NCBI GenBank assembly: GCA_029881805.1
Contig: JAOULW010000002.1
Span: 248,001 to 312,000, forward strand
Direction of reading: 5' to 3'
Origin: Candidatus Bathyarchaeota archaeon
GTDB taxonomy: Archaea > Thermoproteota > Bathyarchaeia > Bathyarchaeales > Bathycorpusculaceae
Length of the DNA stretch: 64,000 nt
This document shows positions 1 through 26,508 of this stretch, one piece after another (positions within the stretch are counted from its first letter, which is position 1; each line of letters starts with the position of its first letter). Below the pieces are notes generated by a model. The model had not been told where the DNA came from, searched no databases, and saw nothing but the letters and a program-made list of their open reading frames with translations. Position numbers and translations under genes: made by a program.

Positions 1-215
1 CCGGAAGGAAACTGACAGCGGAGAAAGTTGCCGATGCAATTAAGGCGTCTAAAGTAGAAGACAAGGTTAAGCACAGAAGACTGATAATTCCAGGTAAGGC
101 AGCACGCTTAAGCGGTGAGATTGAGGAACAAAGCGGTTGGGAAGTGCTTGTTGGACCCAGAGATTCGTCTGACATTCCCAAATTCTTGCAGGAGAAATGG
201 CAAACCCCCGAATGA
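1..215 (+). CDS. cdhE: CODH/ACS corrinoid Fe-S protein subunit (CdhE-like), C-terminal end
   Basis: The window opens inside a gene read in the third frame, giving 70 codons before TGA at 213-215. The peptide contains RRLIIPGKAARLSGEIEEQ and GWEVLVGPRDSSDIPKFL, which I recognise as the C-terminal segment of the gamma (CdhE) subunit of the acetyl-CoA decarbonylase/synthase complex. That subunit carries the methyl group on a corrinoid between tetrahydropterin and the acetyl-CoA synthase site. The start and the N-terminal 4Fe-4S domain lie outside the window. The CdhD delta subunit has a related fold and is the main alternative. Its neighbours (MetV-MetF fusion, ferredoxin, CooT) fit a Wood-Ljungdahl locus. 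Confidence 0.75.
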   Translation, partial: GRKLTAEKVADAIKASKVEDKVKHRRLIIPGKAARLSGEIEEQSGWEVLVGPRDSSDIPKFLQEKWQTPE

Positions 216-322
216 TTTCTTGTTCATATTTTTATGCAATAGAAAAATGTTGAGAATTTGGTTTGAGGGCTCTTACTTTTCCACCATGGGTCTTGAAGCC
301 TACCACCGAGTCTCAGTGACTA

Positions 323-811
323 TTACTCCCTTGATTCTTCCCATTTCTTATATCTTCTAAGATAATCTTCCGGTTTTGGAAAAACGTCTTTAATTCTTTG
401 AAACCGCTTTCTGACGTTTATCCAATGCTGAAGTACCATAAAATCTTTCGGCTTGCCGAAACTTTCAATCTCGCCATTAGACCGTTTCCTTTCAATCCTT
501 ATGCAGTCATCTACAATGCAGCTCAACACGCATGCGCCGCAGTATATGCAAAGTTCTTCGGTTAATCCAACCTCTCCAGTCTTCCAAAATAAGGCGCTTG
601 TTGGACATGCCTTTATGCAGAGTTTGCACTCAATGCCTTTGCATGTTCTTTTATTGATGGTTATTTTTCCCTCGACAAAGAACTCCTTTACGTCTAAAGG
701 CGCAAGAAGCTCTTCTCTCCGTTTTTGTTTTTCTTTCTTAGTGGTCTCTGTTAAAAGCTGGAATATATCTTTGTGCGCGATTTTCCCTTTAAGCTTGCTT
801 TTCTTTGGCAT
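323..811 (-). CDS. 4Fe-4S dicluster ferredoxin-like protein
   Basis: This 162-residue soluble protein has a lysine-rich N-terminal half and a central two-cluster ferredoxin fold. The first cluster ligands are probably Cys57, Cys62, Cys65 and Cys69 before Pro70, with an unusual CX4CX2CX3CP spacing. The second cluster is CX2CX2CX3C at Cys88, 91, 94 and 98, and there is an extra Cys103 where a CP motif would normally be. About 60 charged residues follow (residues 104-162). It is probably an electron carrier for the adjacent CODH/ACS and methylene-tetrahydropterin reductase genes. It is convergent with the cdhE end and co-directional with the MetV-MetF gene upstream. The exact partner cannot be read from sequence. 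Confidence 0.75.
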   Translation of the reverse strand: MPKKSKLKGKIAHKDIFQLLTETTKKEKQKRREELLAPLDVKEFFVEGKITINKRTCKGIECKLCIKACPTSALFWKTGEVGLTEELCIYCGACVLSCIVDDCIRIERKRSNGEIESFGKPKDFMVLQHWINVRKRFQRIKDVFPKPEDYLRRYKKWEESRE

Positions 812-925
812 TCACTTCATCTTTTAATCAAACATCCGTTCTTGAAACGTATAATGTGTATGAATTATAACTTTTTATCCAAAATCCAGAGTGAAATGTG
901 GAAATGTTTGGAAACACCAAGTATC

Positions 926-2554
926 CTAGTTTATTCCGCTCCTTTCAATTATCTTTGGCACAATCCACTCGAAACCCACAGCCATCATGTGTATTCCTGC
1001 AGCGCTAGTTGTCTTGCGGATTTCGCCGATGAGCTCGCTAAAGATTTCAACGTTTTCCTCCAAAAAGGCTTCTTTGCTTTTCTGCTTCGCCCTCCGCAAA
1101 CGTTGCTCCACATCGCCCGGAACTTTGATGCCTGGGACAAATTTAATCATCCAATCCATCATTGCCTGTGACTTGAAAGGGGCAACACCAATCAGAACTG
1201 GTGTTTTCAGGTAGCCTATAGCGTCCAAAAAGCGTTTAGCTTGTTCAACAGTATAGATGCATTGAGTTTGTATGAAATCAACACCAAGTTTAACTTTCCT
1301 CTCAATCTTCAGAATCTCAGGTTCCAAAGGGTCGGCGTTCGGTGCAGCGGCGATACCAATATTGAATCTCGGCGGATTTTCAATTTTGTTACCGTTTAGG
1401 TCCACGCCTTCGTCTATAACTTTTCTCATCATGTACGTGAAAGTCGCAGAATCTAAGTCAAAAACGGGTTTAGACTGAGGTGTATCACCCACCACGGTGT
1501 GGTCCCCAGTTAAAACCAGAATGTTCTTTATTCCCAATGCGCCTGCAGCCAAAACATCAGAAAGTAACGCCAAACGGTTTCTGTCACGCGTTGTCATCTG
1601 GTAAACTGCCTCTAAGTCTCCCTTCTCCTGAATCAAATAAGATGGCACAAGCGCATTCATATAACCAAAAGCCGTAGGGTTATCGGTTACATTAACAGCC
1701 ACAACATGTCCCTTCAAAATTTTTGCGCCCTCAATAACCTCATGAAGATTCGTCGTCTTGACAGGTTCCAATTCACCAGTAAAAACAAATTTGCCATCCA
1801 TTATCTGTTTCATCAACTCACTATAAGCTTCAGGCTTTCTACGTATACTGATTTCGTCAACATTCACAGTCTCAATTTTCTTTTCAACAACTGTTTCGCC
1901 ACCTATTTCTCGCGGATGCTCCGAAATCCTGAAATCCAGAGGAGCCCTAAACTTGGCAAAAGAGTCAAGTCTATTTCTATCTTTCAATCGATTGTAAATG
2001 AGCACCCAAGCACAATCTTTCTTCCATCCACCGACTTCACACTTTCCGTTGACTTGTCCTCCACATGGTCCGTTGAGCAGGCTTTTTGCACATCTAGTTA
2101 TGGGACAGATCCCCCCTGTGTCAAAGAGAATGCAATCACCGCAAGCGCGGCACATCTCGTAAAACTTGCCTTCTTTCGTGTCATGCATTCCCAGAAACTT
2201 TGTGTCATTAGCTGGAATAACTAGCTTGTTTGGATACAAACCCCCGAGCGTCTGAATGCCGACACCACATGCCAAGCTTAGCACAGCATCATAATCATCA
2301 ATCAGCGGATGGAGCGAGCTTGCCACAATCTGCTTATCACACTGGCGTAAGATTGAAGTAGCCTTTATCTTAGATTGACTTAAGCCTTTAATTTTCCGAC
2401 GCATCTCTAGCAACATCTTCAAAATTTCAGCCTGCTTTTCACCACCAACCTCTATTATGCCCGCGCATCCATCACAGCCGAGTATCAGTAGACTTTGAAG
2501 ATTCTCAACCATTCCAAAAATTTCTTCAAGAGGTTTCTGCTGGACTATGATCAA
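926..2554 (-). CDS. metF: MetV-MetF fusion: methylenetetrahydropterin reductase with Cys-rich N-terminal domain
   Basis: The 542-residue protein joins two modules that are separate in acetogenic bacteria. Residues 1-215 resemble MetV (MTHFR C-terminal, zinc/FeS type), with cysteines at 27, 30, 72, 96, 135, 138, 141, 150, 155, 164, 172 and 181. Residues about 235-542 are a MetF TIM barrel; the FTGELEP segment carries the conserved glutamate (Glu261) that corresponds to Glu28 of the E. coli enzyme. It should reduce methylene- to methyl-tetrahydropterin in the methyl branch of the Wood-Ljungdahl pathway. The start is TTG with a strong GGGAGG Shine-Dalgarno at 2562-2567. It is divergent from a flavoprotein with an MvhD-like domain, a possible electron donor. 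Whether the pterin is folate or methanopterin is not visible. Confidence 0.85.
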   Translation of the reverse strand: MIIVQQKPLEEIFGMVENLQSLLILGCDGCAGIIEVGGEKQAEILKMLLEMRRKIKGLSQSKIKATSILRQCDKQIVASSLHPLIDDYDAVLSLACGVGIQTLGGLYPNKLVIPANDTKFLGMHDTKEGKFYEMCRACGDCILFDTGGICPITRCAKSLLNGPCGGQVNGKCEVGGWKKDCAWVLIYNRLKDRNRLDSFAKFRAPLDFRISEHPREIGGETVVEKKIETVNVDEISIRRKPEAYSELMKQIMDGKFVFTGELEPVKTTNLHEVIEGAKILKGHVVAVNVTDNPTAFGYMNALVPSYLIQEKGDLEAVYQMTTRDRNRLALLSDVLAAGALGIKNILVLTGDHTVVGDTPQSKPVFDLDSATFTYMMRKVIDEGVDLNGNKIENPPRFNIGIAAAPNADPLEPEILKIERKVKLGVDFIQTQCIYTVEQAKRFLDAIGYLKTPVLIGVAPFKSQAMMDWMIKFVPGIKVPGDVEQRLRRAKQKSKEAFLEENVEIFSELIGEIRKTTSAAGIHMMAVGFEWIVPKIIERSGIN

Positions 2555-2561
2555 TTTGTTG

Positions 2562-2567
2562 CCTCCC
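2562..2567 (-). promoter_or_regulatory. Strong Shine-Dalgarno selecting a TTG start
   Basis: On the minus strand GGGAGG lies seven bases before TTG at 2554-2552. No ATG or GTG in frame is better placed, so this site decides the start of the MetV-MetF fusion gene. Confidence 0.6.
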
Positions 2568-2698
2568 TAAAGAAGCTCATATCAACATAAGCCGACAATA
2601 TAAAAATTGCTGTAAGCATGACGGAAGTTTAATATCCATGAGATTGCATTCCTTAAGCTTCTTTACGGTTACAGTCTAAGACATTTGAGGTTGATGCT

Positions 2699-4807
2699 AT
2701 GCCCTTTGGAAAAGGTGCCGAAAAATGTTACCCCCCATGCCGTAAAGCCTGTCCTGCCGAGGTCAATATTCAGGCATACATCGCCCTCGCAAGCCAAGGA
2801 AAATTTCACGAAGCCTTGCAAGTAATAAGGAAATACATTCCTCTTCCGGCTGTTTGTGGGAGAGTGTGCTTTAGCCCTTGCGAAGAAGAATGCACAAGAA
2901 AAGATATTGATGAAGCGCTGAGTATTCGTGCAATAAAGCGTCTTATAACAGATTATGAGCTTAAAACGAAACAATATCAAAAGGCAAGTGTAATACCAAG
3001 GAAATATGAAGAGAAGATCGCCGTAATCGGCTCCGGCCCTGCTGGACTCGCTGTAGCCTATGAACTCGTAAAGATGGGATACCCGGTCACGGTTTTAGAA
3101 AAAGCTCCCAAACCTGGCGGCATGCTAAGAGAATGCATACCAGAATATCGACTTCCTAAGAGAGTACTCGACGCAGAAATCCAATATCTCACCGATTTAG
3201 GCGTGGAGATAAAAACAAAATCAGCGCTAGGCAAAGATGTAACAATAGAGGGTCTATTTAGCCAAGGCTACAAAGCAGTCTTTCTGGCCATTGGGGCTCA
3301 AGAGTGCCTAAGCCTAAATGTTGAAGGTGAAAACTTGGGCGGTGTCGCTCACTCTCTCGAATTTTTGCGAGACGTAAACTATGGAGAGCGCATCAACCTT
3401 GGAGATAAGGTAGCAGTAATAGGCGGTGGAAATGTGGCTCTTGATGCAGCCAGAACTGCTAAACGATTAGGAGCTGACGAAGTTACCATAATATATCGGC
3501 GGTCAGAGGAGGAAATGCCGGCTCACCGTCGAGAAGTTGACGAAGCAAAACAGGAAGGCGTGAACTTTCTCTTTCTAGCATCTCCGAAAAGATTTTTGGG
3601 CAAAAATGGAGATGTTGCCTCGATAGAATGCGTTCGGATGAATCTGGGATCACCTGATGAAACTGGCAGAAAACGTCCAATACCAATAGACGGCTCAGAA
3701 TTCAAGTTTCGAGTTAACACGGTGATATTGGCGATAGGAGAAAAACCTGATATCTCTTTCTTACCCAAAGAAGTTGAAGTCACAAGAAGAAATACGATCA
3801 TAGCCGACTCTGTAACGTTAGAAACAAAAATGCCTGGAGTATTTGCAGGAGGAGACGCGGTAACAGGACCAGCATCAGTTATAGAAGCCATAGCCGCAGG
3901 AAAGAAAGCAGCAATTTCAATAAACCGCTATCTGAGATGTCTCGACCTGAAGACTGGAAGAGAGGAAACAATCTTCGAAACAAAATGGGTTAAAAGCGAA
4001 AAAACGTTGGAGAAAAAGCTCAGGAAGCCCTTACAATTATTATCTTCCACTCAACGTTCTGGAAACTTCCAAGAGGTTGAACTCGGATTCGATCTTGAGA
4101 GCGGCTTCAAAGAAACCCACAGATGTCTCTTTTGTGGACCATGCGCCCAATGTCTTGAACTGGAAGACTTGTGCGAGCCAGATGACGTACTTGTGGACGA
4201 AGATAGATGTATAGCGTGTGCCAACTGCGAAAAAATCTGTGGATATGGGGCCATACAAGTTGAAAAATCCGTCGCGAAAGTCAACTATGACCTTTGCAAG
4301 GGTTGCGGAACATGTGCAGTGGAATGTCCAGTAATGGCAATTTCCATGAGCAATTTTACGAATGAGAAAATCCTAAAAGCGATAAGAGAAGCTCCAAAAA
4401 TATGGAGAAACGACACGCCCCATTTTATAGCATTCGTCTGTAACTGGTGTCACGGTGTGAGCATCGATCAGCTCAGGGCGTACGCGAACACCCAAATAAT
4501 TCCAGTGAAATGCGTTGGAAGGGTAGACCCGTTGCATGTTCTCCAAGCTTTTTGGACAGGAGCAGACGGTATTTTGATTCTAGGTTGCCACAGTTCAGAT
4601 TGTCACTATACTTCTGGTACTTCGGTTGCTGATAAAAGAGTTGAACAAACAAAAAAATGGCTTAAGGCAGTTGGAATAGAACCTGAACGATTGAGGATAG
4701 AGAAGACTTGCGTTGATGATAACAACGGTCTCAACGAGACTATAGTAAAATTTGCATCGAATCTAAAAGAGGCGGGTCCAAATCCCTTACAAAAGCATTC
4801 TAGCTAG
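2699..4807 (+). CDS. NAD(P)/FAD oxidoreductase fused to ferredoxin and MvhD-like domains
   Basis: This 702-residue protein belongs to the glutamate synthase small-chain/NfnB family with a C-terminal extension. Residues 1-90 hold an FeS domain with cysteines at 10, 14, 18, 53, 57, 61 and 65. An FAD site GSGPAG lies at 111-116 and an NAD(P) site GGGNVA at 242-247. A CX2CX2CX2C cluster follows near 478, then two 4Fe-4S motifs (RCIACANCEKICG near 503 and LCKGCGTCAVECP near 532). From about 575 an MvhD/FlpD-like domain begins with FVCNWC and contains ILGCHSSDCHY. MvhD-type domains link hydrogenase or formate dehydrogenase to heterodisulfide reductase. It probably passes electrons between NAD(P)H, ferredoxin and the divergently encoded MetV-MetF protein; bifurcation is inference. 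The ATG follows GAGGTTGAT. Confidence 0.85.
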   Translation: MPFGKGAEKCYPPCRKACPAEVNIQAYIALASQGKFHEALQVIRKYIPLPAVCGRVCFSPCEEECTRKDIDEALSIRAIKRLITDYELKTKQYQKASVIPRKYEEKIAVIGSGPAGLAVAYELVKMGYPVTVLEKAPKPGGMLRECIPEYRLPKRVLDAEIQYLTDLGVEIKTKSALGKDVTIEGLFSQGYKAVFLAIGAQECLSLNVEGENLGGVAHSLEFLRDVNYGERINLGDKVAVIGGGNVALDAARTAKRLGADEVTIIYRRSEEEMPAHRREVDEAKQEGVNFLFLASPKRFLGKNGDVASIECVRMNLGSPDETGRKRPIPIDGSEFKFRVNTVILAIGEKPDISFLPKEVEVTRRNTIIADSVTLETKMPGVFAGGDAVTGPASVIEAIAAGKKAAISINRYLRCLDLKTGREETIFETKWVKSEKTLEKKLRKPLQLLSSTQRSGNFQEVELGFDLESGFKETHRCLFCGPCAQCLELEDLCEPDDVLVDEDRCIACANCEKICGYGAIQVEKSVAKVNYDLCKGCGTCAVECPVMAISMSNFTNEKILKAIREAPKIWRNDTPHFIAFVCNWCHGVSIDQLRAYANTQIIPVKCVGRVDPLHVLQAFWTGADGILILGCHSSDCHYTSGTSVADKRVEQTKKWLKAVGIEPERLRIEKTCVDDNNGLNETIVKFASNLKEAGPNPLQKHSS

Positions 4808-4834
4808 TTGCTCTTTACAGCTTCTCAGAGGAAG

Positions 4835-4842
4835 TTTATAAC
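4835..4842 (+). promoter_or_regulatory. Putative TATA box for cooT
   Basis: TTTATAAC stands 37 bases before the chosen cooT start, in the short gap after the flavoprotein gene. The spacing predicts a leader of about 17 bases. This is by pattern only. Confidence 0.35.
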
Positions 4843-4878
4843 TAGGCTTGCACTTCTTACTTCTTGGTTGGATTAAAA

Positions 4879-5058
4879 ATGTGTGAATTCACCGTAATCT
4901 TTGATGGAAAGACAGTTTTCAAAGAAGCAATCTACGCGAAAATGGGAAAAAACAACTTAATCGTTAAAGACATAATGGGAAAATCCAAAGAATTTAAAAA
5001 CTGCAAAATCATCGAAGTTGACGTGAAATCCACACGTCTAATCCTTTCAAGCGCTTAG
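4879..5058 (+). CDS. cooT: CooT-like nickel-binding protein
   Basis: The 59-residue product starts MCEFTVIFDGK and has the small beta-rich pattern of the CooT family. In that family Cys2 binds Ni(II) for carbon monoxide dehydrogenase maturation. An ATG five codons upstream would place the Cys at position 7, so I choose 4879, which keeps Cys2. The gene follows the electron-transfer flavoprotein and lies about 4.7 kb from the CODH/ACS subunit end at the window edge, which supports a role in supplying nickel to CODH/ACS. Length agrees with the family (about 60-65 residues). Confidence 0.75.
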   Translation: MCEFTVIFDGKTVFKEAIYAKMGKNNLIVKDIMGKSKEFKNCKIIEVDVKSTRLILSSA

Positions 5059-5077
5059 AATCCGCCGGATACAGAAT

Positions 5078-5899
5078 CTAAGATATTAACAAAACTAGAT
5101 AACCCATTGCTAAACCAAAGATTACTGGAAATGGCAGTCCAGGGAACATTCCCTTCTTTTCCAACAATTTGAATGATAGTAGACATCCTAACAAAATGCC
5201 CATCATCGCGGCTGAACATGAGATGACGCCGAAATTGAGAAGCATATGTCCTGAAAGCATAGAATAAAACGTCAGATCTCCCAATCCCATCTGAAGGTCT
5301 CTAAAAGAGAAACTTAGACCGCGAAGTTGCTCAAGCCCGCTACGCGCTATTTTTCCAACAGGTCCATGATATACGGCAAATACATCGTATATCGAAAGAA
5401 AACCTAGAATCAACGTCAAGCTTAACGTAGGGATTGAGAAGCCTAAAAACGCTCCTAAAGCACCACCTACACAGAGAACTATAATATCACAAACTTTGCT
5501 TCTGGTTTTAAAAATCGCAAAATCCGCTAAAGCAGTCACAAGCACAGAAGACACTAAGGTCAAGATCTCTATGTAAGGAACATCAAACCTTGAAAATGCC
5601 GCAGATAAATAAACAATGGAAAGCATGAAAATCGCTGCTGTCAAAGCAAACCCAGTGATTAAATTAATCAATTTGTGACTTTTTCGTTTTAAAAGAAAAT
5701 ATAAAAGTGAAGCGCCAACTCCAGCTAAGACGACAAAATAGAACGCGTTGCCAAAAGAGCCAAGCGTGCCTTCTGGGAATGGTGTAATCCTATAGAACTC
5801 TTCCACTGTTGATACTAGAAATGCGCACAACACTCCGAAAATAAGGCTTGCTGAGATGGGCGCTAGGTGTATGAGCCCTGCTTCAAACTTGTCGCTCAA
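5078..5899 (-). CDS. Presenilin/SPP-like intramembrane aspartyl protease
   Basis: The 273-residue protein is almost entirely membrane-spanning (about eight to nine hydrophobic segments). It has both catalytic motifs of the presenilin / signal peptide peptidase fold: YD at 171-172 (SIYDVFAVYHGP) and GLGD at 205-208 (MGLGDLTFYS). The third motif, PAL in most members, appears as PGLPFPV near 253-259, so it is diverged. Such enzymes cleave transmembrane helices after ectodomain shedding. The first 17 bases overlap the end of the archaemetzincin gene, and the genes from 7737 to 5078 run as one minus-strand operon. No substrate is indicated. Confidence 0.85.
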   Translation of the reverse strand: MSDKFEAGLIHLAPISASLIFGVLCAFLVSTVEEFYRITPFPEGTLGSFGNAFYFVVLAGVGASLLYFLLKRKSHKLINLITGFALTAAIFMLSIVYLSAAFSRFDVPYIEILTLVSSVLVTALADFAIFKTRSKVCDIIVLCVGGALGAFLGFSIPTLSLTLILGFLSIYDVFAVYHGPVGKIARSGLEQLRGLSFSFRDLQMGLGDLTFYSMLSGHMLLNFGVISCSAAMMGILLGCLLSFKLLEKKGMFPGLPFPVIFGLAMGYLVLLIS

Positions 5900-16682: not shown

Positions 16683-17052
16683 TTGAAAACACACCCTATT
16701 CGAGGAATACAATTAAAGTTTAAAACCGAAATCTCCTTACTTCTTTTAGCAATCGCAGTGTGTATTGTGAGTGCTTTTTGCTATTCTTGTGAAGCCTACA
16801 AGCAAGGGCACCGTTTCTATCATGGGTTTTGTTGTCTTCTCTTGGATTTTGAGAAAATTGCTAAGGGAGACGTTCCTGTTTAGATGAGTAATTCTTGGAT
16901 TAAGCCTCTTTCGACTCATAATTCCAACACTTGTGTTGGCGATGCTCGCTAATCCACAACGTGATTTGCAGTTGGTTTACCTTCCCCCAGCATTTATGCC
17001 GTCACTGCTACTGTTTTTCGTAGAGTATTTCTCGGTATTATCCAAGCAATAG
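16683..17052 (+). pseudogene. Decayed small membrane protein gene
   Basis: In the gap between the PfkB and prepilin-peptidase genes, two plus-strand frames together read like one broken membrane protein. From TTG 16683 the first frame gives KFKTEISLLLLAIAVCIVSA, a clean transmembrane segment. It loses that character after about residue 40. A second frame then carries MGFVVFSWILRKLLRETFLF, a TGA, and GLSLFRLIIPTLVLAMLANP to a stop at 17052. This needs one frameshift and one in-frame stop. The end overlaps the convergent peptidase gene by 15 bases. Chance hydrophobic frames in AT-rich DNA are the alternative. Confidence 0.35.
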
Positions 17053-17862
17053 GCGAATGCAAACCCACACGATATCGCCGAATAATAAGGCAAGGACCAA
17101 CCCCGCTGTGATGAAGATCAGCATTGGCAAGCCTGGTGTCGCCCAGACAGCGTCACTAATCTTTCCAGTTTCAACAGCCTTGGCTAATTTCTCAACCATC
17201 ACATTTCGGTTCTCGTCTCTGGGTATAACAACCAATCTTCTTTTAAGCGTATTTTCATTGCATTCTTCTATGTCTTCTAGAAGGTAAATATGCCATTTCT
17301 CCCTTAGTTTAGCAATTGAGACTTTATAGCCAGTTATCAAAACCAAAACCTTTCTGCCCAAAGACGCATTTTCATAGCCTTCAAAAAGCCTGTTACCAGT
17401 CATCAGATGCCATGCTACGTTACGGAGAAACATGTAAACCGCCGCCGCTGCAGCAAGTAGAACTGAATTGCTGAAAACAGTCACTGGAAAAAAGATTTCT
17501 GAAATCGGCGATACTCTTTCCAAAAATGTGAGCAAGTTTGACGGATAAAATGGTAACGCAAGCGCCAGGCACATTAAGGCTTTCGCGTCAGCGCCTCCAA
17601 AACCCCCAAAGTAGAACAGTATCACTGCGAAGGCTGCGGTCAAACCGAAACACATGCCATAAGAAAGTACGCTCAAAGTTTCTCCATAGGAAAACAGCTC
17701 AATGAGCGTTAATGCCAGTGCTGGTGGAGCAAAAAGCAACCAAACATTGTTACTCACTTCACGGGTTTTATAGTCGCTCCACGACGCATATAATAGAAAG
17801 ATTAGGGTGAGTGAGGTTCTTATTGTAGTGAGTATTAGCTGCACTTCCAAGCAAAGCACCAC
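17038..17862 (-). CDS. Prepilin/preflagellin peptidase, A24 family (FlaK/PibD-like)
   Basis: This 274-residue membrane protein has the two aspartate motifs of type IV prepilin peptidases: YASWSDYKTREV with Asp30 and FGGADAKALM with Asp92. The usual GxGD appears as GGAD. It lacks the N-terminal methylase zinc domain of bacterial PilD, as archaeal FlaK/PibD do, and has about 100 extra cytoplasmic residues before a last membrane helix. It should cleave the class III signals of the pilins encoded next to it. It is the last gene of the minus-strand pilus locus. Confidence 0.88.
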   Translation of the reverse strand: MVLCLEVQLILTTIRTSLTLIFLLYASWSDYKTREVSNNVWLLFAPPALALTLIELFSYGETLSVLSYGMCFGLTAAFAVILFYFGGFGGADAKALMCLALALPFYPSNLLTFLERVSPISEIFFPVTVFSNSVLLAAAAAVYMFLRNVAWHLMTGNRLFEGYENASLGRKVLVLITGYKVSIAKLREKWHIYLLEDIEECNENTLKRRLVVIPRDENRNVMVEKLAKAVETGKISDAVWATPGLPMLIFITAGLVLALLFGDIVWVCIRLLLG

Positions 17863-17984
17863 TAAGTATTGCTTAGTTTCGCCCTATTTTTGGCATAGCG
17901 TCAAGGTAAGTGATCTAATAATCAATATAAATGATTGGATATGTTTTTTGAAGCATTAGCATCAAGTGCTTGTTGAAAATTTAC

Positions 17985-18425
17985 TTATTGCGGCGCTTGT
18001 TCCAGCCACTCTAAAGTTTGTCCAGCAGAAGATGCGACTTTGAAATAGTATGCCGCTCCATTCGTCCATGTATAGTTCACGGTTATGCTTCTAATTGAAC
18101 CTGCTGGGAGTGATATTGGAAGTGCAGGGGTCGTCGTTTGATTTTCCAGAGTTGAGCTTGAGGTTCCCACGTAAACTTGTATTATTAGAGTGTCGGAGGT
18201 TCCGGTATTTTGAACATCTATGTCTATTTTCTTTGTGGCGTCTTGCGTATAGAAGTTTACATTTGTTTTCCACAGTCTAACTCCTGCTTGTTCGCCCGCG
18301 CTGCCCATGTACATCATTATCCAGGAATATGTGACGACAATGGCTGCTACCGCTATAACTATCAACAACAGCGTGGCAAGTATTGGCGATATAGCCTCTT
18401 TGGCTTTTAACAGCTTTTGTTTCAA
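17985..18425 (-). CDS. Archaeal type IV pilin
   Basis: The 146-residue product starts with a short positive leader and the class III site KAKEA/ISPILATLLLIVIAVAA (cleavage expected between Ala11 and Ile12), followed by one hydrophobic helix. The rest is a beta-rich, Thr/Ser-rich head (NTGTSDTLIIQVYVG) typical of archaeal pilins with the archaeal_pilin N-terminal domain. It is the smallest, most ordinary pilin of the locus and may be the major subunit. A 122-base gap separates it from the peptidase gene. Confidence 0.88.
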   Translation of the reverse strand: MKQKLLKAKEAISPILATLLLIVIAVAAIVVTYSWIMMYMGSAGEQAGVRLWKTNVNFYTQDATKKIDIDVQNTGTSDTLIIQVYVGTSSSTLENQTTTPALPISLPAGSIRSITVNYTWTNGAAYYFKVASSAGQTLEWLEQAPQ

Positions 18426-18530
18426 TATATCTTCACCTTTTGCTGTTTAGGAAATCTCCATATTACTTATTTAACTCATATGAACCCAAAATCTACATTC
18501 AGAATAACTTGAAGACCAAATAGTGGAGGC

Positions 18531-20855
18531 TTAGCTCTCAGTTGAAACAGTGATTGCTGGAGGATATTCAACTGTTATCCATAACCCCGTTTTTTGATCA
18601 GTTTCCACTTTGTACAAAGGAGTTGTGTTGTAGAATGTGACTACTGCTCCGTGCCAAGTTATATCTAAAGAATTTGTGAAACTCACTGGCGCCATGGTTA
18701 CTGGAAGCAATTCAATCGTCCTTTCTGGAGTATTGGACACTTTGAGAGCGCCTGTTTTGCTTCCTGCTGTTGCGTCAAAGAAGTAAAGCCTTTGATTTGC
18801 ACTATCCGTGAACGTGATTCCTGCTCCCTGATCTCCTGAGCCAAATTGGCTCCAATGGTGCGTCCAATAAGAAGACGATAGATTATAGAATAGACCTGTT
18901 ACATTAGAGATAATTGGGAACCCATTTTCTGTTCCATTTTCAGTCTGCGGTGAACCGAATGGAATAGTCAATCTGATTGGGCATAGATCCGTAATAGTTC
19001 TGCTTTGTTGGCTTTCTATGAACATTAATCTTAATTGGTAAGTGAAGTATGTGGCGTTAGCTGGAAAGGTTACCACGATGTGCGCATAAAGGTTCGGACA
19101 GTTGTCGGCGCCGCCACTCCATTCAGCCTCTTGATGAATTATGTCCCTCACGATTCCATGATGAATGACATAAGCTGGGGCAGCCCCGTAAATGCTCCAT
19201 CCATTGTTAATGCGCATGAACCGGGCGGTGCTTTCAGACGTTCCTATTGTTGATTTTATTTGGAATCTACCGCTCGACGTGATTACGGTCAAGCTCATGA
19301 TTCCATTGGTTAAAAATCCATTATCAGGGTCATCACCAGTGAAGTATCGGTTAGTGAAGGCATAGAATGTCTGGTTAGCCGCGTCACTTCCTTCCCACCA
19401 TATAGTAACTTTCGAGACTTTACTACATACTAAGAAAACTAGCATTGTTCTTCTACTGAAGACGCTTGCGTTGTTTGCTAAGCCCAGCGGAATTCTGTAC
19501 TCTGACGCCCAGTCTTCTATCTGAAATGGCACTTCACAGTTTACGCCATCAATCGTCTGATTTACATGAATTGCCTTCACTGGTATGGGCGGAATAGGTT
19601 TTGCCTGTGTTGTTAAATGCAGGTTTTGACCGAGCCATCTCATTGTGCCGTTTTGCAGTAACTCCACAACTAGAGTTTCATTTGGAATTGTTGAGTAGTT
19701 TCCAGCGATGTCGACTACTACTGTAGCATAGATTGCGTCAACATAGGCATCAACATTAAGATTATTTCTGAATTGAATATGAGTAGTGTTAAGGTTGTTC
19801 CAAGTCCAAACTGCTCTCAAGCTTGTAGCGTTGTATGTCCTCGTCAAAGGAGATGTTGTACTTCCACCTTGGGGTAAGTCTTCGATTTTATTCCACGCGC
19901 CACCATCTAGCAGATAATACCATTCTAAAGCTCCATTGCCTGAACCGTAATAAGTTATGTTGAAATAAACCTGTTCTAGTATCCCTGTTCCGTCCTGATA
20001 ATCAGTCACTTCGCACGTGGTTCCTTTTCCAATTGTTTCGTAATTCCCATCAGGTACTCCAGTAATTGCAGAACTGCTTCCTGCGACAGCATACTTGGTC
20101 GGTGATTGAGGATTCCACGAGAATGTGCACGTGTAATGGCTAAAGGATGAAGCTACGACGATTATTCCCCTAGAGTCTTCAACTTGAATCACATAGGAGT
20201 ACTGATCTATTCCCGATGGAATGTCAATTAGGTACGTGCCGTTTGCAAAAGCTGTTGGTTCGCTACTTGGATTGACCAACTCCCATGTCGAGCTTGCATG
20301 AATATAACGATAAAATTTGAAGTTCTTTTTTCCAAGATTTATGAGCGGCTCGTCTTCGTCTTTAGTTATTATCAAATGTGTCTGATTGCTTGAGGTGGCA
20401 TTTTCAACTTGTACCGTTAATCGACAATAGGTTTCATAGGTTATTCCGTACATTCCAAGTCCAATCAAGCTGTAATTCACAGCCAGGTTTCCAGTGCTGT
20501 AACTTGCATTTGTAAACCAGTAAGTGCTCATATCAGAGTAACTTACGTCGAATGATGCTCCCCAGTCTGGGTGCATGTCAGCTATGTTTACCAATCCACT
20601 GTGAAGATAGTTTCTTGCTAGCATTTTTGCATATGAAGAATTCCCAGTGACTTGTAGCACGGAGCCATAATAGCCAACCGTAAAGCCGAGGATTTGTTTT
20701 AGAGCAAGATTTGTCTCGTCTATCGCACTTAGAACTTGCGGCTGGTCTCGGACCGGACTGTTACGTATCGTGGAATAAGTGATTATTACAGTGGCTATGA
20801 GTATTACTGCCACAAACAGAGCCGCAATGATTGAAAACTGACCCTTGCAGTTCAT
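18531..20855 (-). CDS. Large pilus-locus surface protein with pilin-like N-terminus
   Basis: The product has 774 residues. The start MNCKGQFSIIAALFVAVILI places Gly-Gln-Phe before a 20-residue hydrophobic helix, as in pseudopilins, although the class III site is not canonical. The remaining 740 residues are extracellular in character: Asn-x-Ser/Thr sequons, many aromatic and Thr residues, and no catalytic motif that I recognise. It is three bases downstream of the stop of the next protein in the operon (20859-22184) and must be cotranslated. It could be a tip adhesin or minor pilin. No family name is assigned. Confidence 0.7.
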   Translation of the reverse strand: MNCKGQFSIIAALFVAVILIATVIITYSTIRNSPVRDQPQVLSAIDETNLALKQILGFTVGYYGSVLQVTGNSSYAKMLARNYLHSGLVNIADMHPDWGASFDVSYSDMSTYWFTNASYSTGNLAVNYSLIGLGMYGITYETYCRLTVQVENATSSNQTHLIITKDEDEPLINLGKKNFKFYRYIHASSTWELVNPSSEPTAFANGTYLIDIPSGIDQYSYVIQVEDSRGIIVVASSFSHYTCTFSWNPQSPTKYAVAGSSSAITGVPDGNYETIGKGTTCEVTDYQDGTGILEQVYFNITYYGSGNGALEWYYLLDGGAWNKIEDLPQGGSTTSPLTRTYNATSLRAVWTWNNLNTTHIQFRNNLNVDAYVDAIYATVVVDIAGNYSTIPNETLVVELLQNGTMRWLGQNLHLTTQAKPIPPIPVKAIHVNQTIDGVNCEVPFQIEDWASEYRIPLGLANNASVFSRRTMLVFLVCSKVSKVTIWWEGSDAANQTFYAFTNRYFTGDDPDNGFLTNGIMSLTVITSSGRFQIKSTIGTSESTARFMRINNGWSIYGAAPAYVIHHGIVRDIIHQEAEWSGGADNCPNLYAHIVVTFPANATYFTYQLRLMFIESQQSRTITDLCPIRLTIPFGSPQTENGTENGFPIISNVTGLFYNLSSSYWTHHWSQFGSGDQGAGITFTDSANQRLYFFDATAGSKTGALKVSNTPERTIELLPVTMAPVSFTNSLDITWHGAVVTFYNTTPLYKVETDQKTGLWITVEYPPAITVSTES

Positions 20856-20858
20856 TTG

Positions 20859-22184
20859 CTAGACCCCTCCAGTTTGCCCGAGTTGCAAAACAACAAGCCT
20901 AGATGTCCCGGCAGCTGTGTATTCTGAACGGTAAAGTCTCGGCTTATAATCGAACAAGAGACCTAAGGCTGTAAGCCTAATGTCCGGAGTTCTCGTCAAA
21001 CCAAGCGCAAAAAGCGAACCAGTAGAGTCAGTGTCACCAGGAGAAAAGTGTCTGTAAACTGCACCTGGAAGCCAGCTGCCTACTTGGCTGAAGACGTAGG
21101 AGGTCACTGTTAAGTGATATGTGCTCAGTATTGATGTTGGAAGTGCTCTTGTTGCTGTTTGATAGGAAGAAGGATAAATGCCATAATAATTGCAATAGTA
21201 CAAGGCTTCAGATGAAAGATAAACAACACCGAGCTCTGACGTTATCCAACCAGAATTGTAAGCATATGCCTGATTATCTAAGCCTCGGAGGAATGCATTT
21301 AACCCTGCTGGGCCAACATGTCTCATTCCATAAATTCCCCACGTGTTATGTTCACTTGGGAATAGCCCCTTGTTACTGACATAATAAAGCGGATAGCCTA
21401 CTATGTTGACCCAAGTCCAGTTGTATTGCCGTATTCTTTGACCTAACGTGTGGCAATATCTGGCGTAAGAGTTTTGGACAGGGTCGTACCCAACGCCTGA
21501 GCTTGCGTAATATCCTGCTGGTATTGGCACTGCTTCTCCGCATGTGTTTATTACAACGGCATTTTGGAGGATCTCTCCTTGAAGCGCTGTGCCGTTTAGT
21601 ATTTGTCCTAATTGCGTTGTGTTTTGTATCATTATTGTGCGTTGAAAGTATAGTGAAAGTAAGTTGTATAGGTCTTCTGCTAAACTGTGGGCGGTATAGC
21701 CAGTAATCCACCAGCCATTTGCGTCGCTGCAATTCAATATATAAAGGGTGCCTCCGCCTCCATGTTCCCCGATCTTTTCAGGAATGACCCCGAAAGTCAC
21801 GTTAGACGAAGCTACGAGGTAAGAAGATGCGTCGGATGCTATCCCTAAACTTTCAGCGTTTGAAATCGATTTAATGGGAAGATAAAGCTGTCCTCCGCCA
21901 CCGCTTTGCACTTCATAGACTGTCAAGTTATAAACTATGTTAGGCGGTAGACAAGCAGAAAGCGCAACCTGCAATTGTCCCCAATCCGGATCTGATTCGT
22001 TCTTAAACACTATTTCGCTCAGGTCATAGTCCACGTCCAATGTTTGAAGGGTCGTTAATGCAATTCTTCTAAGGTTTAGTGGCGAAACGCTTCGTGGCTG
22101 AGGTAAGACGGCGAAGAAAGAAGAGATTATGAATGCTCCTGTGACAATGAGTATTACTAGAAATATCTCAATTGTCCGCATCAT
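20859..22184 (-). CDS. Pilus-locus protein with N-terminal membrane anchor
   Basis: The 441-residue protein opens with MMRTIEIFLVILIVTGAFII, one transmembrane helix directly at the N-terminus, and continues as a long Tyr/Ser-rich extracellular domain with several sequons (for example VYNLTV). No enzymatic motif is visible. It lies between two other large anchored proteins with one to four bases between reading frames, so it is an integral part of the pilus operon. I do not recognise a family; a minor pilin or assembly component is inference from position. Confidence 0.65.
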   Translation of the reverse strand: MMRTIEIFLVILIVTGAFIISSFFAVLPQPRSVSPLNLRRIALTTLQTLDVDYDLSEIVFKNESDPDWGQLQVALSACLPPNIVYNLTVYEVQSGGGGQLYLPIKSISNAESLGIASDASSYLVASSNVTFGVIPEKIGEHGGGGTLYILNCSDANGWWITGYTAHSLAEDLYNLLSLYFQRTIMIQNTTQLGQILNGTALQGEILQNAVVINTCGEAVPIPAGYYASSGVGYDPVQNSYARYCHTLGQRIRQYNWTWVNIVGYPLYYVSNKGLFPSEHNTWGIYGMRHVGPAGLNAFLRGLDNQAYAYNSGWITSELGVVYLSSEALYYCNYYGIYPSSYQTATRALPTSILSTYHLTVTSYVFSQVGSWLPGAVYRHFSPGDTDSTGSLFALGLTRTPDIRLTALGLLFDYKPRLYRSEYTAAGTSRLVVLQLGQTGGV

Positions 22185-22185
22185 C

Positions 22186-23418
22186 CTAGCCCACCACCGG
22201 ATAACTTTCTAAACTCCACAATGCAAGCTTGGCTTGATAGGCGACTCGATTAACTATTACTTGTCGTAGGTCTGTTGCGACCCATTCCTTTCCAGATGTG
22301 TCTTCTCCAAAAGTCACTGGAAAGGCCATAGAACTTATTCCCCAAGGCATTAAGATGACGCCACCTTCAACAGCGCTTTTTCTGTATGTAATTATCAAGA
22401 TTCCAGGGTTGTAGGTTGGAATTGTAACAACTTTGTAGGGTTTTCCTTCACCATAGTTGACTTTGCCAACTTTCCCTGTGTCATTGTCCATGGGCATTTC
22501 GCGTAGAGTAAAGTCTTCGGTCAATAGGACAAAGGTTGCGTTGTATGATAATTCTGCTACGGGCGGTCCAAAATATTGCACGTCATAGCTGTGGGCTATG
22601 AGCACTTTCCTCTCTTCTAGATTATCAATGAATGGAATGATGTATTGTTTATCTGAATTTACTCGTTCATGGTAGCCCACTCCAATTAATCCGCTAAGGT
22701 GAGCATATGCGATGAAAGCGTAGGAAATCCCGTCATCATCAACCTCAGCGAACTCTAATACAACTGACCCTTTATCATCAGCGTAGGTGGTGCCATACTC
22801 CGTTTTGTAAGACGGGTATTCTCCTCCACCTTCAGCTAATGCGACTGTAAGAAAGCAATAACTTATTGCAGCGTTTGCAAGCGGAAAGCCTGTTCCGGTA
22901 ACCTCAACAGAGATCTTTAAAGGATTTTTGGATTGAACCTCCTTAACTGAAACTGTTATAATCGGAGTTATAGTCAGCTGGAACCCGTATGTGTTATTTA
23001 CTCCAAGCAGTTTTGCCACGGTGGAGTAGTTAATGGCTTGGGTGAAAGATACCAGCAGAAAATTGCCAAAACCCATGGTTATATTACTATAATATGACCC
23101 AGTCTTAGGATAGTATACTGGTTGTCCATATGAAGATCGCAGTCGCATGAGCGAGAATGGACTGAGCTTGTACTGCGTGAATTCTGGGTCTTGCACTCCG
23201 AAACCCGTTGGAGTGCAATTACTTCTTCCCCAATTGACTGGGATGCCCGGGTTCAGCAACATGTTATCAAGCAGATCACTACATTTTGTTGCAAGGTTTC
23301 TATGACGCTGATATAGTATTGCTGTTTGGAGGGTTTGGTTGAAGAGGCTTATGAAGAGCAGTATTGCTCCTAAAAACACGGTGACAGAAATCAGATGATC
23401 TATAGTTGAACCTGCCAT
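22186..23418 (-). CDS. Pilus-locus protein with N-terminal membrane anchor
   Basis: This 410-residue protein has an N-terminal helix (DHLISVTVFLGAILLFISLF, residues 7-26) followed by a short coiled segment and a beta-rich exposed domain. A stretch near 170-260 resembles a carboxypeptidase-regulatory or Ig-like fold (NPLKISVEVTGTGFPLANAA). It has no catalytic motif. Its gene begins one base after the previous stop in the operon and is 15 bases from the small anchored protein upstream. Its N-terminal helix after a short leader resembles TadE/pseudopilin organisation. Confidence 0.65.
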   Translation of the reverse strand: MAGSTIDHLISVTVFLGAILLFISLFNQTLQTAILYQRHRNLATKCSDLLDNMLLNPGIPVNWGRSNCTPTGFGVQDPEFTQYKLSPFSLMRLRSSYGQPVYYPKTGSYYSNITMGFGNFLLVSFTQAINYSTVAKLLGVNNTYGFQLTITPIITVSVKEVQSKNPLKISVEVTGTGFPLANAAISYCFLTVALAEGGGEYPSYKTEYGTTYADDKGSVVLEFAEVDDDGISYAFIAYAHLSGLIGVGYHERVNSDKQYIIPFIDNLEERKVLIAHSYDVQYFGPPVAELSYNATFVLLTEDFTLREMPMDNDTGKVGKVNYGEGKPYKVVTIPTYNPGILIITYRKSAVEGGVILMPWGISSMAFPVTFGEDTSGKEWVATDLRQVIVNRVAYQAKLALWSLESYPVVG

Positions 23419-23433
23419 AATTCTGTGCCCCTC

Positions 23434-23916
23434 TCAACCTCCGAAGAACAAACTTATAGTGCCGTTAGCTAATTTCTCTGCTCTTATGCATGCATTTGTT
23501 GAGTTACTTATGAAAGTCGATTCTTGCCATAGAACATTTTGACCCAAAATAACAGAGGTAGATGCAATTGTTCCGGCAGTCTTTAGTCTAAGCGTTATTT
23601 CCAATATTTTGCTCGAATTCAAAGCTGGGTCTAGAATCGTTCTTAGTGTAGCGTTTCCTGTGTAAGGGTAATTTTCTATGAATGATGGAACGTTTGATTT
23701 TTGTGTAACGGTTCCGGTGGATATTGTCGCGTGGTTTAAAGCGAAGTATATCTGCTGTATTGTGCTTCCTAGTTGGCTTGCGGCTTCCTGCAGCACAAGC
23801 GTTCTGCGTGAGTCCACCCAGATATTCATGAGCCAGTTTGCCGTCAAAGGGAAGAGGAAAATCTGTAAAACTAAAACTGGAACCATAATCACATATTCGA
23901 TGGTCACATGAGGCAT
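23434..23916 (-). CDS. Small TadE/pseudopilin-like protein
   Basis: The 160-residue protein begins MPHVTIEYVIMVPVLVLQIF, a hydrophobic N-terminal helix of the type found in TadE-like and pseudopilin proteins, followed by a heptad-like stretch (RRTLVLQEAASQLGSTIQQI) and a small beta domain. Without a basic leader it may not be processed by the peptidase. It sits between the 280-residue pilin and the larger anchored proteins in the same operon, which makes a minor pilus component likely. Family assignment is by analogy only. Confidence 0.65.
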   Translation of the reverse strand: MPHVTIEYVIMVPVLVLQIFLFPLTANWLMNIWVDSRRTLVLQEAASQLGSTIQQIYFALNHATISTGTVTQKSNVPSFIENYPYTGNATLRTILDPALNSSKILEITLRLKTAGTIASTSVILGQNVLWQESTFISNSTNACIRAEKLANGTISLFFGG

Positions 23917-23938
23917 TTAATAATCGCCCTCTCAAAGG

Positions 23939-24781
23939 TTAGATATGCAATCCTAAAGAGGTAATCACCTCGGCTGTGTAAAACTCGATAACGGAGCCAT
24001 CAGGGACGTCCACAATCTCTTCTGTGTTCTTAAATCTGAAGAAGTCAGCGTTGAAACCAAGACTGGCCTTTGGAAAAGTAACGGTTATCTTTATTGTATT
24101 GCAGGCCTCGGTTTTAGCTGAGATAGAGCTTCCACTCAGCGTTACAGATTGCGAACGACGCGGATGCGAGCCTTGGCTGAGAATTGGCAAATAAAACTTG
24201 AAATAGTTTTTTGACTCCCCACCAGTGGATATTGTTGAATTCAACACTCTTAGGGACGGAGCAGCAACCACTCGTATGAAGTTGCCATCGTTCATCGGTA
24301 GTTTTTCAATAACGTATATGTAGCATACTGGTGCTGAAGCACCTTTCTGGAGGAATGCGCCATCTGAAGATGGAGATATAAGTCCGTAGTAGTCGTTTCC
24401 GATAGAGTATTTGTATATATGCATATTAAACAGAAGTATGCCTACGCTATAGCTAGCGAAGTAGGTGTATCCTCCTGTCTTGTTCAAGTAGACTGTATAA
24501 TTTAACGCCAAAGATTCAAAGTTTACTTCTCCATATTTGCTGGCGTAACGAACTGTTTGCGTACGTCCAACGGTCCAAGCTACATCATCAATTTGAAGCC
24601 CAACTGTTTGCATGAATTGTTTCATTGTACTGAATTCGTTTTCAGCCATTCTTGCGTTTAGGAAGTTGTTTGCAAAAACTATTGTTACTAATAGCATTAC
24701 TACAACTGCACTTGTTAGTATGACGGTTGAAATCGCTGGGCTGATTGCTCTCTTGTCTTTTCCGAATCGAGTAAGCAGCAA
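23939..24781 (-). CDS. Archaeal type IV pilin-like protein, class III signal
   Basis: The product (280 residues) carries a clear class III prepilin signal: FGKDKRA/ISPAISTVILTS with cleavage expected after Ala13, followed by a hydrophobic helix to about residue 35. The C-terminal 240 residues form an exposed beta-rich domain. It is about twice the length of the other pilin in the locus, so it may be a minor or tip pilin. Its gene is directly downstream of the membrane platform gene by 27 bases. Confidence 0.82.
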   Translation of the reverse strand: MLLTRFGKDKRAISPAISTVILTSAVVVMLLVTIVFANNFLNARMAENEFSTMKQFMQTVGLQIDDVAWTVGRTQTVRYASKYGEVNFESLALNYTVYLNKTGGYTYFASYSVGILLFNMHIYKYSIGNDYYGLISPSSDGAFLQKGASAPVCYIYVIEKLPMNDGNFIRVVAAPSLRVLNSTISTGGESKNYFKFYLPILSQGSHPRRSQSVTLSGSSISAKTEACNTIKITVTFPKASLGFNADFFRFKNTEEIVDVPDGSVIEFYTAEVITSLGLHI

Positions 24782-24807
24782 GGTTTTGAACTTCGTGATT
24801 TTCCCTC

Positions 24808-26508
24808 CTAGCCAAATTTTACAAACATCGGGACTATTTTAGCTGCTAAAACGGCGATTATCACAAGGATAGATGCATGTTTGAATCCTGCCGCAATAGA
24901 TTCTTCACTTATTTTTCCCGCCACCAAGCCTATCAAGTAGCTGTGGAAAATGCATGAAGTGATGAATGTTGTTATCATCGGGCTTAGATCCCTTTCGACG
25001 CCTGTCTCAGCCACGCCTAGTGTTCCCGAAGTAAAGCCTATCATCATCGTCGTTGTCGCCACAAGCAGAATAGCCGCGAAATACGGCATTAGTATATATG
25101 GGCGAACTGCCATTTTCTTCTCCTTCTCGACCTCATTGGTTAGGTTGTTGAATCTTGCCAGAGATTCAATCATGGCAATTGTGCCTCCGCCCACATCTAT
25201 TGTTTCAACAAGTAGAAACATTATGACTTGAGTCATCCAGCTTCGTGTTCTCTTGACAAAATCCATTACCACCTTTTTGACGGGAACTCCCCAAGAAATC
25301 TCTGAGCTTATTTTACGCAATTCTTTGCTGAATTCACCATAATCGCGGCGGGCAAGACTTTCAATACATCTTTCAGGGGATAAACCCGTTTTTCTGACTT
25401 CAGTCAGGTCTCTTAGAAAACTGTTAATTCCTTGTTCGATGCTTGCTTTTCTCTTCGAGACCTTGCTGTTCACTATTGCGGCTGGTGCTGTAGCAATAAA
25501 GAGGACTATGGCAATTGCCACAGGTAGGTCAATTATTGTTTGAAATGAGCCGAAAAATGGAACTTGTATGTACCCCATAAAGTTTGTCAGCAATAGGAAG
25601 ATTACTATGGCTATAATGCTGCAGATTCCGAATGTCTTGTATGGGCGGGTTTCTACTACTGGCGTCTTGGGTTGCATGCTGTGCGCCAGATAAATGAACA
25701 TTAGTGAAAGCATTGGTGTGAATAAGTAAGTGTAGAGAATTATGCCTGAATACATTGTTATGCCGATGCTGTAGATGGATTCCACGCTGAATAGAATGTA
25801 AAAGCAAAGAGACATCAAAACCATAACAATTATGAACGTCTCTAAGAGCATTCCAAGCCTTTCTGCAGCAGCCTTGACACGCAAGGCTCTTGTCTTGAAG
25901 ATGTCTTCAGCTTTTCTCTCAAGAAAGTGCCCAATGTCGCCGCCGATTATTACTGTTGAGGCGTACCCGGATAGGAAATCTTTGAAGACGTCTAGTGGGT
26001 TTTTCTTTGCTGCATTCTCTATGGCTGTTAAAGGGTCTATTCCAAAAATTTCCACATCTTTTATGATTTCCCTTGCTTCACCACTCATTGCGGGCATTAA
26101 CTCAACTTCAGCGAGTCGTTTGAAACTTGTGTAAGGTGCAATACCTCCAGAAGCCATAACGCTAATGTAAGCTGCTGCAAAAGGCATCTCCCTTTCTAAG
26201 TTGCTTGCCCTTTCACTGGCTCTAGACATAGGTATCAATAGAAATCCTATCATTACGTAAAACGGAAGTGGAATTAAGAAGATTATAGGAAGGAAACCGT
26301 AAAGATATAGAATCACCAACGATATTATGGGCACTGGGACTGTCAACGCTGCAATAAAGAACATTAGCGAGACGTAAGTTTCTGGGTAGATTTTTATTTT
26401 TGCTCTTTCCAGATAATCCTTAAACTCAAAAACGTTTTTTAGAAAGGAAGGCGCGGTGCTTCCGAAGAGGCGGAAGGACCATGCCTCAAGGGTTTCTAGA
26501 AACGGCAA
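24808..26508 (-). CDS. Type IV pilus membrane platform protein (TadC/GspF/ArlJ family)
   Basis: The 566-residue protein contains two copies of the type II secretion F-domain fold, about residues 55-290 and 330-550, each a cytoplasmic four-helix region followed by membrane helices. Archaeal ArlJ and Tad-type platform proteins share this layout. It anchors the pilus assembly machine in the membrane and is driven by the ATPase encoded directly upstream. The start overlaps the ATPase end by 23 bases, which implies coupled translation. Confidence 0.85.
   Translation of the reverse strand: MPFLETLEAWSFRLFGSTAPSFLKNVFEFKDYLERAKIKIYPETYVSLMFFIAALTVPVPIISLVILYLYGFLPIIFLIPLPFYVMIGFLLIPMSRASERASNLEREMPFAAAYISVMASGGIAPYTSFKRLAEVELMPAMSGEAREIIKDVEIFGIDPLTAIENAAKKNPLDVFKDFLSGYASTVIIGGDIGHFLERKAEDIFKTRALRVKAAAERLGMLLETFIIVMVLMSLCFYILFSVESIYSIGITMYSGIILYTYLFTPMLSLMFIYLAHSMQPKTPVVETRPYKTFGICSIIAIVIFLLLTNFMGYIQVPFFGSFQTIIDLPVAIAIVLFIATAPAAIVNSKVSKRKASIEQGINSFLRDLTEVRKTGLSPERCIESLARRDYGEFSKELRKISSEISWGVPVKKVVMDFVKRTRSWMTQVIMFLLVETIDVGGGTIAMIESLARFNNLTNEVEKEKKMAVRPYILMPYFAAILLVATTTMMIGFTSGTLGVAETGVERDLSPMITTFITSCIFHSYLIGLVAGKISEESIAAGFKHASILVIIAVLAAKIVPMFVKFG

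Follow-up and report, generated by a model that had tools for sequence, protein, structure and literature searches.

How electrons are supplied or removed at the methylene/methyl step of the archaeal Wood–Ljungdahl pathway, when Mer is missing or MetF is present instead, is an open question which was raised for ANME-1 (anaerobic methanotrophic archaea, group 1; PMC9012536) and also for families of Bathyarchaeia that yielded no mer (PMC8407382). The gene pair described here lies in a stretch of 64,000 nucleotides (hereafter the window) on contig JAOULW010000002.1, positions 248,001 to 312,000, from the Candidatus Bathyarchaeota archaeon assembly GCA_029881805.1 (genome G000, contig C24 in our numbering). 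It consists of a gene coding for a MetV–MetF fusion protein (MetVF) and a divergent gene coding for a 702-residue flavoprotein with a C-terminal MvhD domain. The best reading is that the module is a conserved variant, devoid of HdrA, of the Hdr-type methylene-pterin reductase of acetogens. We put at roughly 55% the probability that the pair is an NADPH-fed, MvhD-tipped and probably non-bifurcating two-protein chain at the step between methylene- and methyl-tetrahydromethanopterin (H4MPT); NADPH is the reduced form of nicotinamide adenine dinucleotide phosphate (NADP). Since this input of electrons is a conserved unit of only two genes whose cofactors are defined, two recombinant proteins would be enough to address the question.

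Domain composition of the two proteins

The gene at 926–2554 (minus strand) encodes a 542-residue protein, in which a profile search found MetV (DUF5981, E = 2e-32) followed by the MTHFR barrel (E = 7e-27), with the MetV half covering approximately residues 1–228 (2554–1871) and the MetF barrel residues 249–540 (1810–935). The first-pass annotation, which placed the fusion in an archaeal host, had reported 12 cysteines in the N-terminal half, and these were counted at residues 27, 30, 72, 96, 135, 138, 141, 150, 155, 164, 172 and 181. All of them are invariant across seven aligned fused proteins, namely the one from the window and six homologues sharing 55–81% identity with it. The predicted structure, with a mean predicted local distance difference test (pLDDT) score of 62, has a fold match to MTHFR; here and below, structure models served fold matching only. 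Judging by the domains and the conserved cysteines, the protein is a putative MetVF-type methylene-tetrahydropterin reductase with predicted pterin reduction. Related MetVF proteins are carried by Candidatus Bathyarchaeota (the deep-sea relative JdFR-07 and others), Hecatellales, Borrarchaeum and Methanomethylicota.

Separated from it by a divergent spacer of 144 bases (2555–2698) is the flavoprotein gene (2699–4807, plus strand). Its product starts with a two-cluster Fer4_20 domain (E = 9e-20; residues 10–90, 2726–2968) and a Pyr_redox_2 domain binding flavin adenine dinucleotide (FAD) and NAD(P) (E = 5e-36; residues 106–401, 3014–3901). These are followed by a Cys-rich stretch (CxxCxxCxxC, residues 476–485) matching the N-terminus of NfnB-type proteins, two 4Fe-4S ferredoxin motifs (Fer4, E = 2e-9; Cys504–514 and Cys533–543, 4205–4348) and the MvhD (FlpD) domain (E = 7e-33; residues 577–693, 4427–4777), in which Cys 581, 605, 630 and 635 are invariant. 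Both reading frames were recovered at the coordinates stated before. The earlier description of an NfnB-like flavoprotein with an MvhD-like end, divergent from MetVF, thus agrees with the profile matches, as does the MetV homology, and both ferredoxin motifs it listed are present, but the Fer4_20 domain and the Cys-rich stretch add further clusters to them.

Among solved structures, the flavoprotein is closest to the large subunits of NfnABC (9n5u, 9bov) and StnABC (8oh5), with 44–49% identity in structural alignments. Lys80 (codon 2936–2938, plus strand) aligns, by residue count through the HMMER alignment, with K170 of StnC, which ligates the FAD-proximal cluster and is replaced with Glu in NfnB; the StnC FAD has been reported to be non-bifurcating and to serve as the NADPH entry port (PMC10482914). 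Lys occupies this position in all module orthologues with a gene call spanning it and in the Hdr-associated paralogues, while the canonical NfnB-like proteins found in the class have Glu (L105, L013–L015). Lys80 and the closest matches place the flavin domain with the StnC/NfnABC large-subunit type, which is no proof that bifurcation is absent. The YRR motif is conserved, as in the NADPH-using StnABC/NfnABC relatives, and the protein is probably linked to NADPH rather than NADH.

The likeness to the large subunits of StnABC (Sporomusa) and NfnABC (Caldicellulosiruptor, Thermococcus) consists in the GltD-like FAD/NADPH domain and the Lys at the cluster-ligand position. However, the 702-residue protein has no NuoG/FdhF-like region and ends with ferredoxin motifs and MvhD instead, which speaks against full membership of that family. 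Nor is there a HydB/HydC-like partner among the neighbours identified, not every one of which was scanned for HydB/HydC. The NfnAB transhydrogenase shares the NfnB-like fold with FAD and clusters but differs in the Glu ligand and in its NfnA subunit: no NfnA partner is found beside the module, the PF10418 matches being either distant from it or on different contigs, in the window's genome only on contigs C6 and C11. No HdrA flavin domain was found in the flavoprotein, the HdrA and HdrA2 models matching only its Fer4–MvhD end.

Conservation of the pair and exchange of partners

Strong MetV/MetF matches were found in 67 of the 251 genomes of the class surveyed and the flavoprotein–MvhD fusion in 15; a wider sample, 398 genomes from across the phylum, showed the fusion only in genomes already found in the class. 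Neighbourhoods were examined as contig stretches (L-numbered). Wherever the contig permits a test, the flavoprotein gene is directly beside metV(F) in divergent orientation, with about 144–206 bases between them according to match coordinates (14/14 genomes: G000, G218, G230 and G241 from family f1; G066, G150, G164, G179, G199, G222, G215, G235, G117 and G233 from family f5). The flavoprotein gene of G230 is cut by the contig end, and each of the two genes of G191 sits at the end of a contig. MetVF is a single fused protein in f1, while f5 has MetV and MetF as separate proteins. The adjacency stays exact while the remaining cluster is rearranged. Because of this arrangement, functional coupling of the two proteins is well supported, and they very probably work together; neither of the outcomes that would have counted against the first-pass annotation, missing MvhD or MetV homology in profile searches or a pair not neighbouring in related genomes, was seen. 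Five further genomes with near full-length matches (G126, G062, G161, G140, G163) were rejected, as in L098–L102 the NfnB-like and MvhD-like proteins have a gene each, next to large HdrA-like genes, and no fusion is seen.

The first-pass annotation had the functions condensed into two polypeptides, which is too simple, since two more genes travel with the pair. One, absent from that annotation, codes for a 162-residue ferredoxin-like protein with two 4Fe-4S motifs (323–811, minus strand), whose orthologues lie near the pair in f1 and f5. The other is the gene right after the flavoprotein gene in f5, coding for an FrhB/FpoF-like oxidoreductase of coenzyme F420 (PF04432, E = 5e-43), after which the orthologue of the ferredoxin-like protein comes in some genomes. 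FrhB is also encoded near MetVF in family f4 (L130, L131), and the window's genome has a 58% identical orthologue in the same cluster about 16 kb from the pair (C24:232965-233990). In G192, where MetVF is fused but the flavoprotein fusion is missing, there is no close FrhB either.

In other lineages, MetVF has different partners beside or near it: an HdrA–MvhD protein of about 1110–1200 residues (L123, L092, L131) or a protein with 4Fe-4S motifs and MvhD but without a flavin domain (L084, L086, L091, L097, L127–L129). Proteins of about 380–400 residues with ferredoxin motifs and FlpD are encoded directly upstream of metV(F) in L084 (1-1143), L086 (6698-7897) and L097 (8151-9341). In L123, the gene just upstream of a fused MetVF that shares 81% identity with the window's codes for an HdrA–MvhD protein (2-3340), a partner swap inside the fused clade. 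The element common to the alternative partners is MvhD with ferredoxin motifs. Because every exchanged partner keeps it, gene order points to MvhD as the connector to MetVF, partner exchange being the strongest sign of this, and suggests an interchangeable plug that lets StnC-like, HdrA or ferredoxin-type partners serve the same MetVF, depending on the lineage. In Sporomusa pull-downs, MvhD interacted with MetF and HdrA (PMC9430772).

On the preferred reading, the two proteins would form an electron chain for the methylene-H4MPT/methyl-H4MPT step. MetVF would be the catalytic part, with flavin in the MetF barrel and Fe-S clusters in MetV; the 702-residue protein would oxidise (or reduce) NADP(H) at its StnC-like FAD, and single electrons would pass via the 4Fe-4S clusters to the 2Fe-2S tip of MvhD, which would dock on MetV. 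Flow along this chain is probably linear, and the ferredoxin-like protein and the FrhB homologue are probable extra ports for ferredoxin and F420. Complex formation, NADPH as the donor, direction and linear flow are what we infer from sequence and gene order. More tentatively, this may be a new archaeal methylene-tetrahydropterin reductase complex, in which the StnC-like NADPH subunit with MvhD replaces HdrA and which, together with FrhB and the ferredoxin-like protein, moves electrons among NADPH, F420, ferredoxin and the methyl branch beside Mer.

Like the Hdr-type MetVF–HdrABC–MvhD systems of Moorella and Sporomusa, the module encodes MetV, MetF and an MvhD unit alongside a flavoprotein whose proposed role is NAD(P)H oxidation. 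It differs from them in lacking the HdrA flavin domain and HdrB/HdrC (none by inspection among the open reading frames (ORFs) of window 1–5100 or the L002 genes), in the StnC/GltD-like flavoprotein fused to MvhD, in the fusion of MetV to MetF and in the use of H4MPT rather than tetrahydrofolate (H4F). Candidatus Syntrophoarchaeum MetFV–HdrA–MvhD clusters and ANME-1 MetF are also related, with an archaeal MetF of a clade including Bathyarchaeota and, once, a tie to MvhD (PMC9012536), but the module has the StnC-like protein in place of HdrA and most module genomes retain mer. Korarchaeia, too, have gene groups in which FrhB occurs together with an MvhD unit and a flavoprotein (PMC10667645), although these groups are HdrA based and MetVF is not mentioned in the part of that source consulted.

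Pterin carrier, energetics and competing explanations

Pathway markers were sought in 16 genomes, i.e. the 15 with the flavoprotein–MvhD fusion and G192. Mch was found in 11 of them including the window's genome, neither FolD nor formate–tetrahydrofolate ligase (FTHFS) was above the cut-off in any of the 16, and several genomes of f5 and f4 encode Mtd close to metF. Taken together, these markers point to H4MPT or a close analogue as the carrier, and H4F was rejected as FolD and FTHFS were not found. The reduction of methylene-H4F takes place at −200 mV (PMC5861303), NADH lies at −320 mV (PMC3685469) and F420 at −340 mV (PMC8498797). NADH-driven bifurcation is therefore feasible with H4F. Methylene-H4MPT, on the other hand, is reduced near −320 mV (E0′), about the NAD(P)H potential and close to F420, so little driving force is left, which argues against bifurcation and for a near-equilibrium, reversible, linear enzyme. 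With H4MPT as the carrier, the thermodynamic reason for the bifurcation proposed for Moorella is largely gone.

Strong mer matches are present in 12 of the 15 module genomes, so the module is not simply a replacement for Mer and may connect Mer's step to another electron pool. Across the class, 24 of the 67 MetVF genomes have Mer, showing neither exclusion nor strict co-occurrence. G150, whose cluster has no mer and where Mtd directly follows metF (L074), was rejected as a natural mer knock-out, giving weak support only: elsewhere, beside an Mch paralogue, the genome encodes a divergent protein resembling Mer (35% identity), which scores 273 bits where the cut-off is 349. This genome has five Mch homologues, and the one beside the Mer-like protein (L149 3455-5483) has what sequence reading suggests are an AOR-like protein and a sugar kinase close by; the group is possibly a second one-carbon (C1) branch.

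Several findings weigh against the NADPH-fed two-protein chain. G192, a close relative with 95% completeness, has a fused MetVF with no flavoprotein partner nearby, and several f17 genomes carry MetV–MetF without an MvhD partner within the stretch examined; MetVF may therefore also function with ferredoxin and no further partner. NADPH was preferred to NADH on motif similarity alone, and the model of the 702-residue protein is poor (mean pLDDT 58) and uninformative on the path between clusters.

Among the alternatives, an electron hub survives best, though it is unlikely in its full form; it extends the two-protein chain by giving F420 to FrhB, NADPH to the flavoprotein and C1 to MetVF, and may replace a missing F420:NADP oxidoreductase (Fno). 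Besides the positions of FrhB in f5, in f4 and in the window genome's cluster, it is favoured by the distribution of Fno, which is above the cut-off in none of the 15 module genomes compared to 42 of the 251 in the class, and among mer-bearing genomes in 0/12 with the module compared to 16/42 (Fisher p = 0.011, uncorrected for relatedness). Such an absence would fit a role in NADPH–F420 exchange, and ANME-1 has also been reported without Fno (PMC9012536). However, the absence tracks lineage, which may explain it and leave it meaningless, FrhB is not adjacent to the pair in the window's genome, and it could serve other enzymes.

It is rather improbable that the two genes are pathway neighbours only, with MetVF fed by ferredoxin alone and the flavoprotein serving another enzyme, e.g. 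carbon monoxide dehydrogenase/acetyl-CoA synthase (CODH/ACS). Many Bathyarchaeia carry metV–metF without the flavoprotein, the cluster is a general C1/CODH neighbourhood, and ferredoxin has been proposed as the donor of clostridial MetVF (PMC8760232); yet the divergent adjacency is exact despite the rearrangements, and other MvhD-bearing proteins occupy the same place.

Least probable is the bifurcating reductase of the first-pass annotation, in which NAD(P)H would reduce methylene-H4MPT and ferredoxin together at an NfnB-like FAD, since for all the GltD/NfnB fold with FAD and clusters, the ferredoxin-like gene travelling with the pair and the bifurcation proposed for Moorella MetFV–HdrABC–MvhD (PMC5861303, PMC9430772), the module has Lys80 instead of Glu, no NfnA homologue nearby, MvhD attached to a StnC/NfnABC-type rather than an HdrA flavin domain and a predicted H4MPT carrier, and Sporomusa showed no ferredoxin or NAD(P) co-reduction (PMC9430772).

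Surrounding genes

The window opens with the C-terminal end of CdhE (1–215, plus strand), a CODH/ACS subunit whose remainder lies upstream, outside the window (L002 ORF 16776-18215), preceded by further cdh-like genes. The cluster upstream comprises mer, AsnC-like and CBS genes, cofE, two cooC-like genes and the CODH/ACS operon ending with CdhE. The mer gene, an addition to the earlier description, is a canonical F420-dependent one about 12 kb from the pair (L002 5678-6691, G000:C24:235678-236688; TIGR03555 above its cut-off). The AsnC-like and CBS genes adjoin it, and the same arrangement is seen again in f5. Downstream, the flavoprotein gene is followed by a CooT-like gene for 64 residues (4864–5058, plus strand; PF10133 E = 2.8e-6, barely above the cut-off), and both neighbours named in the annotation, CODH/ACS and CooT, are thus in place.

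On another contig of the same genome, stretch L103 (G000:C35:91000-102069) contains an operon coding for a Lys-type NfnB-like protein, an MvhD-like protein, a double HdrA-like protein, MvhD, an HdrB-like CCG protein and MvhG/MvhA-like subunits of a [NiFe]-hydrogenase, possibly an NADPH-linked HdrABC–MvhADG complex. Farther along the window (17038–28114, minus strand), ORF sequence reading revealed an archaeal pilus-type cluster with a prepilin peptidase-like protein, a secretion ATPase and membrane proteins.

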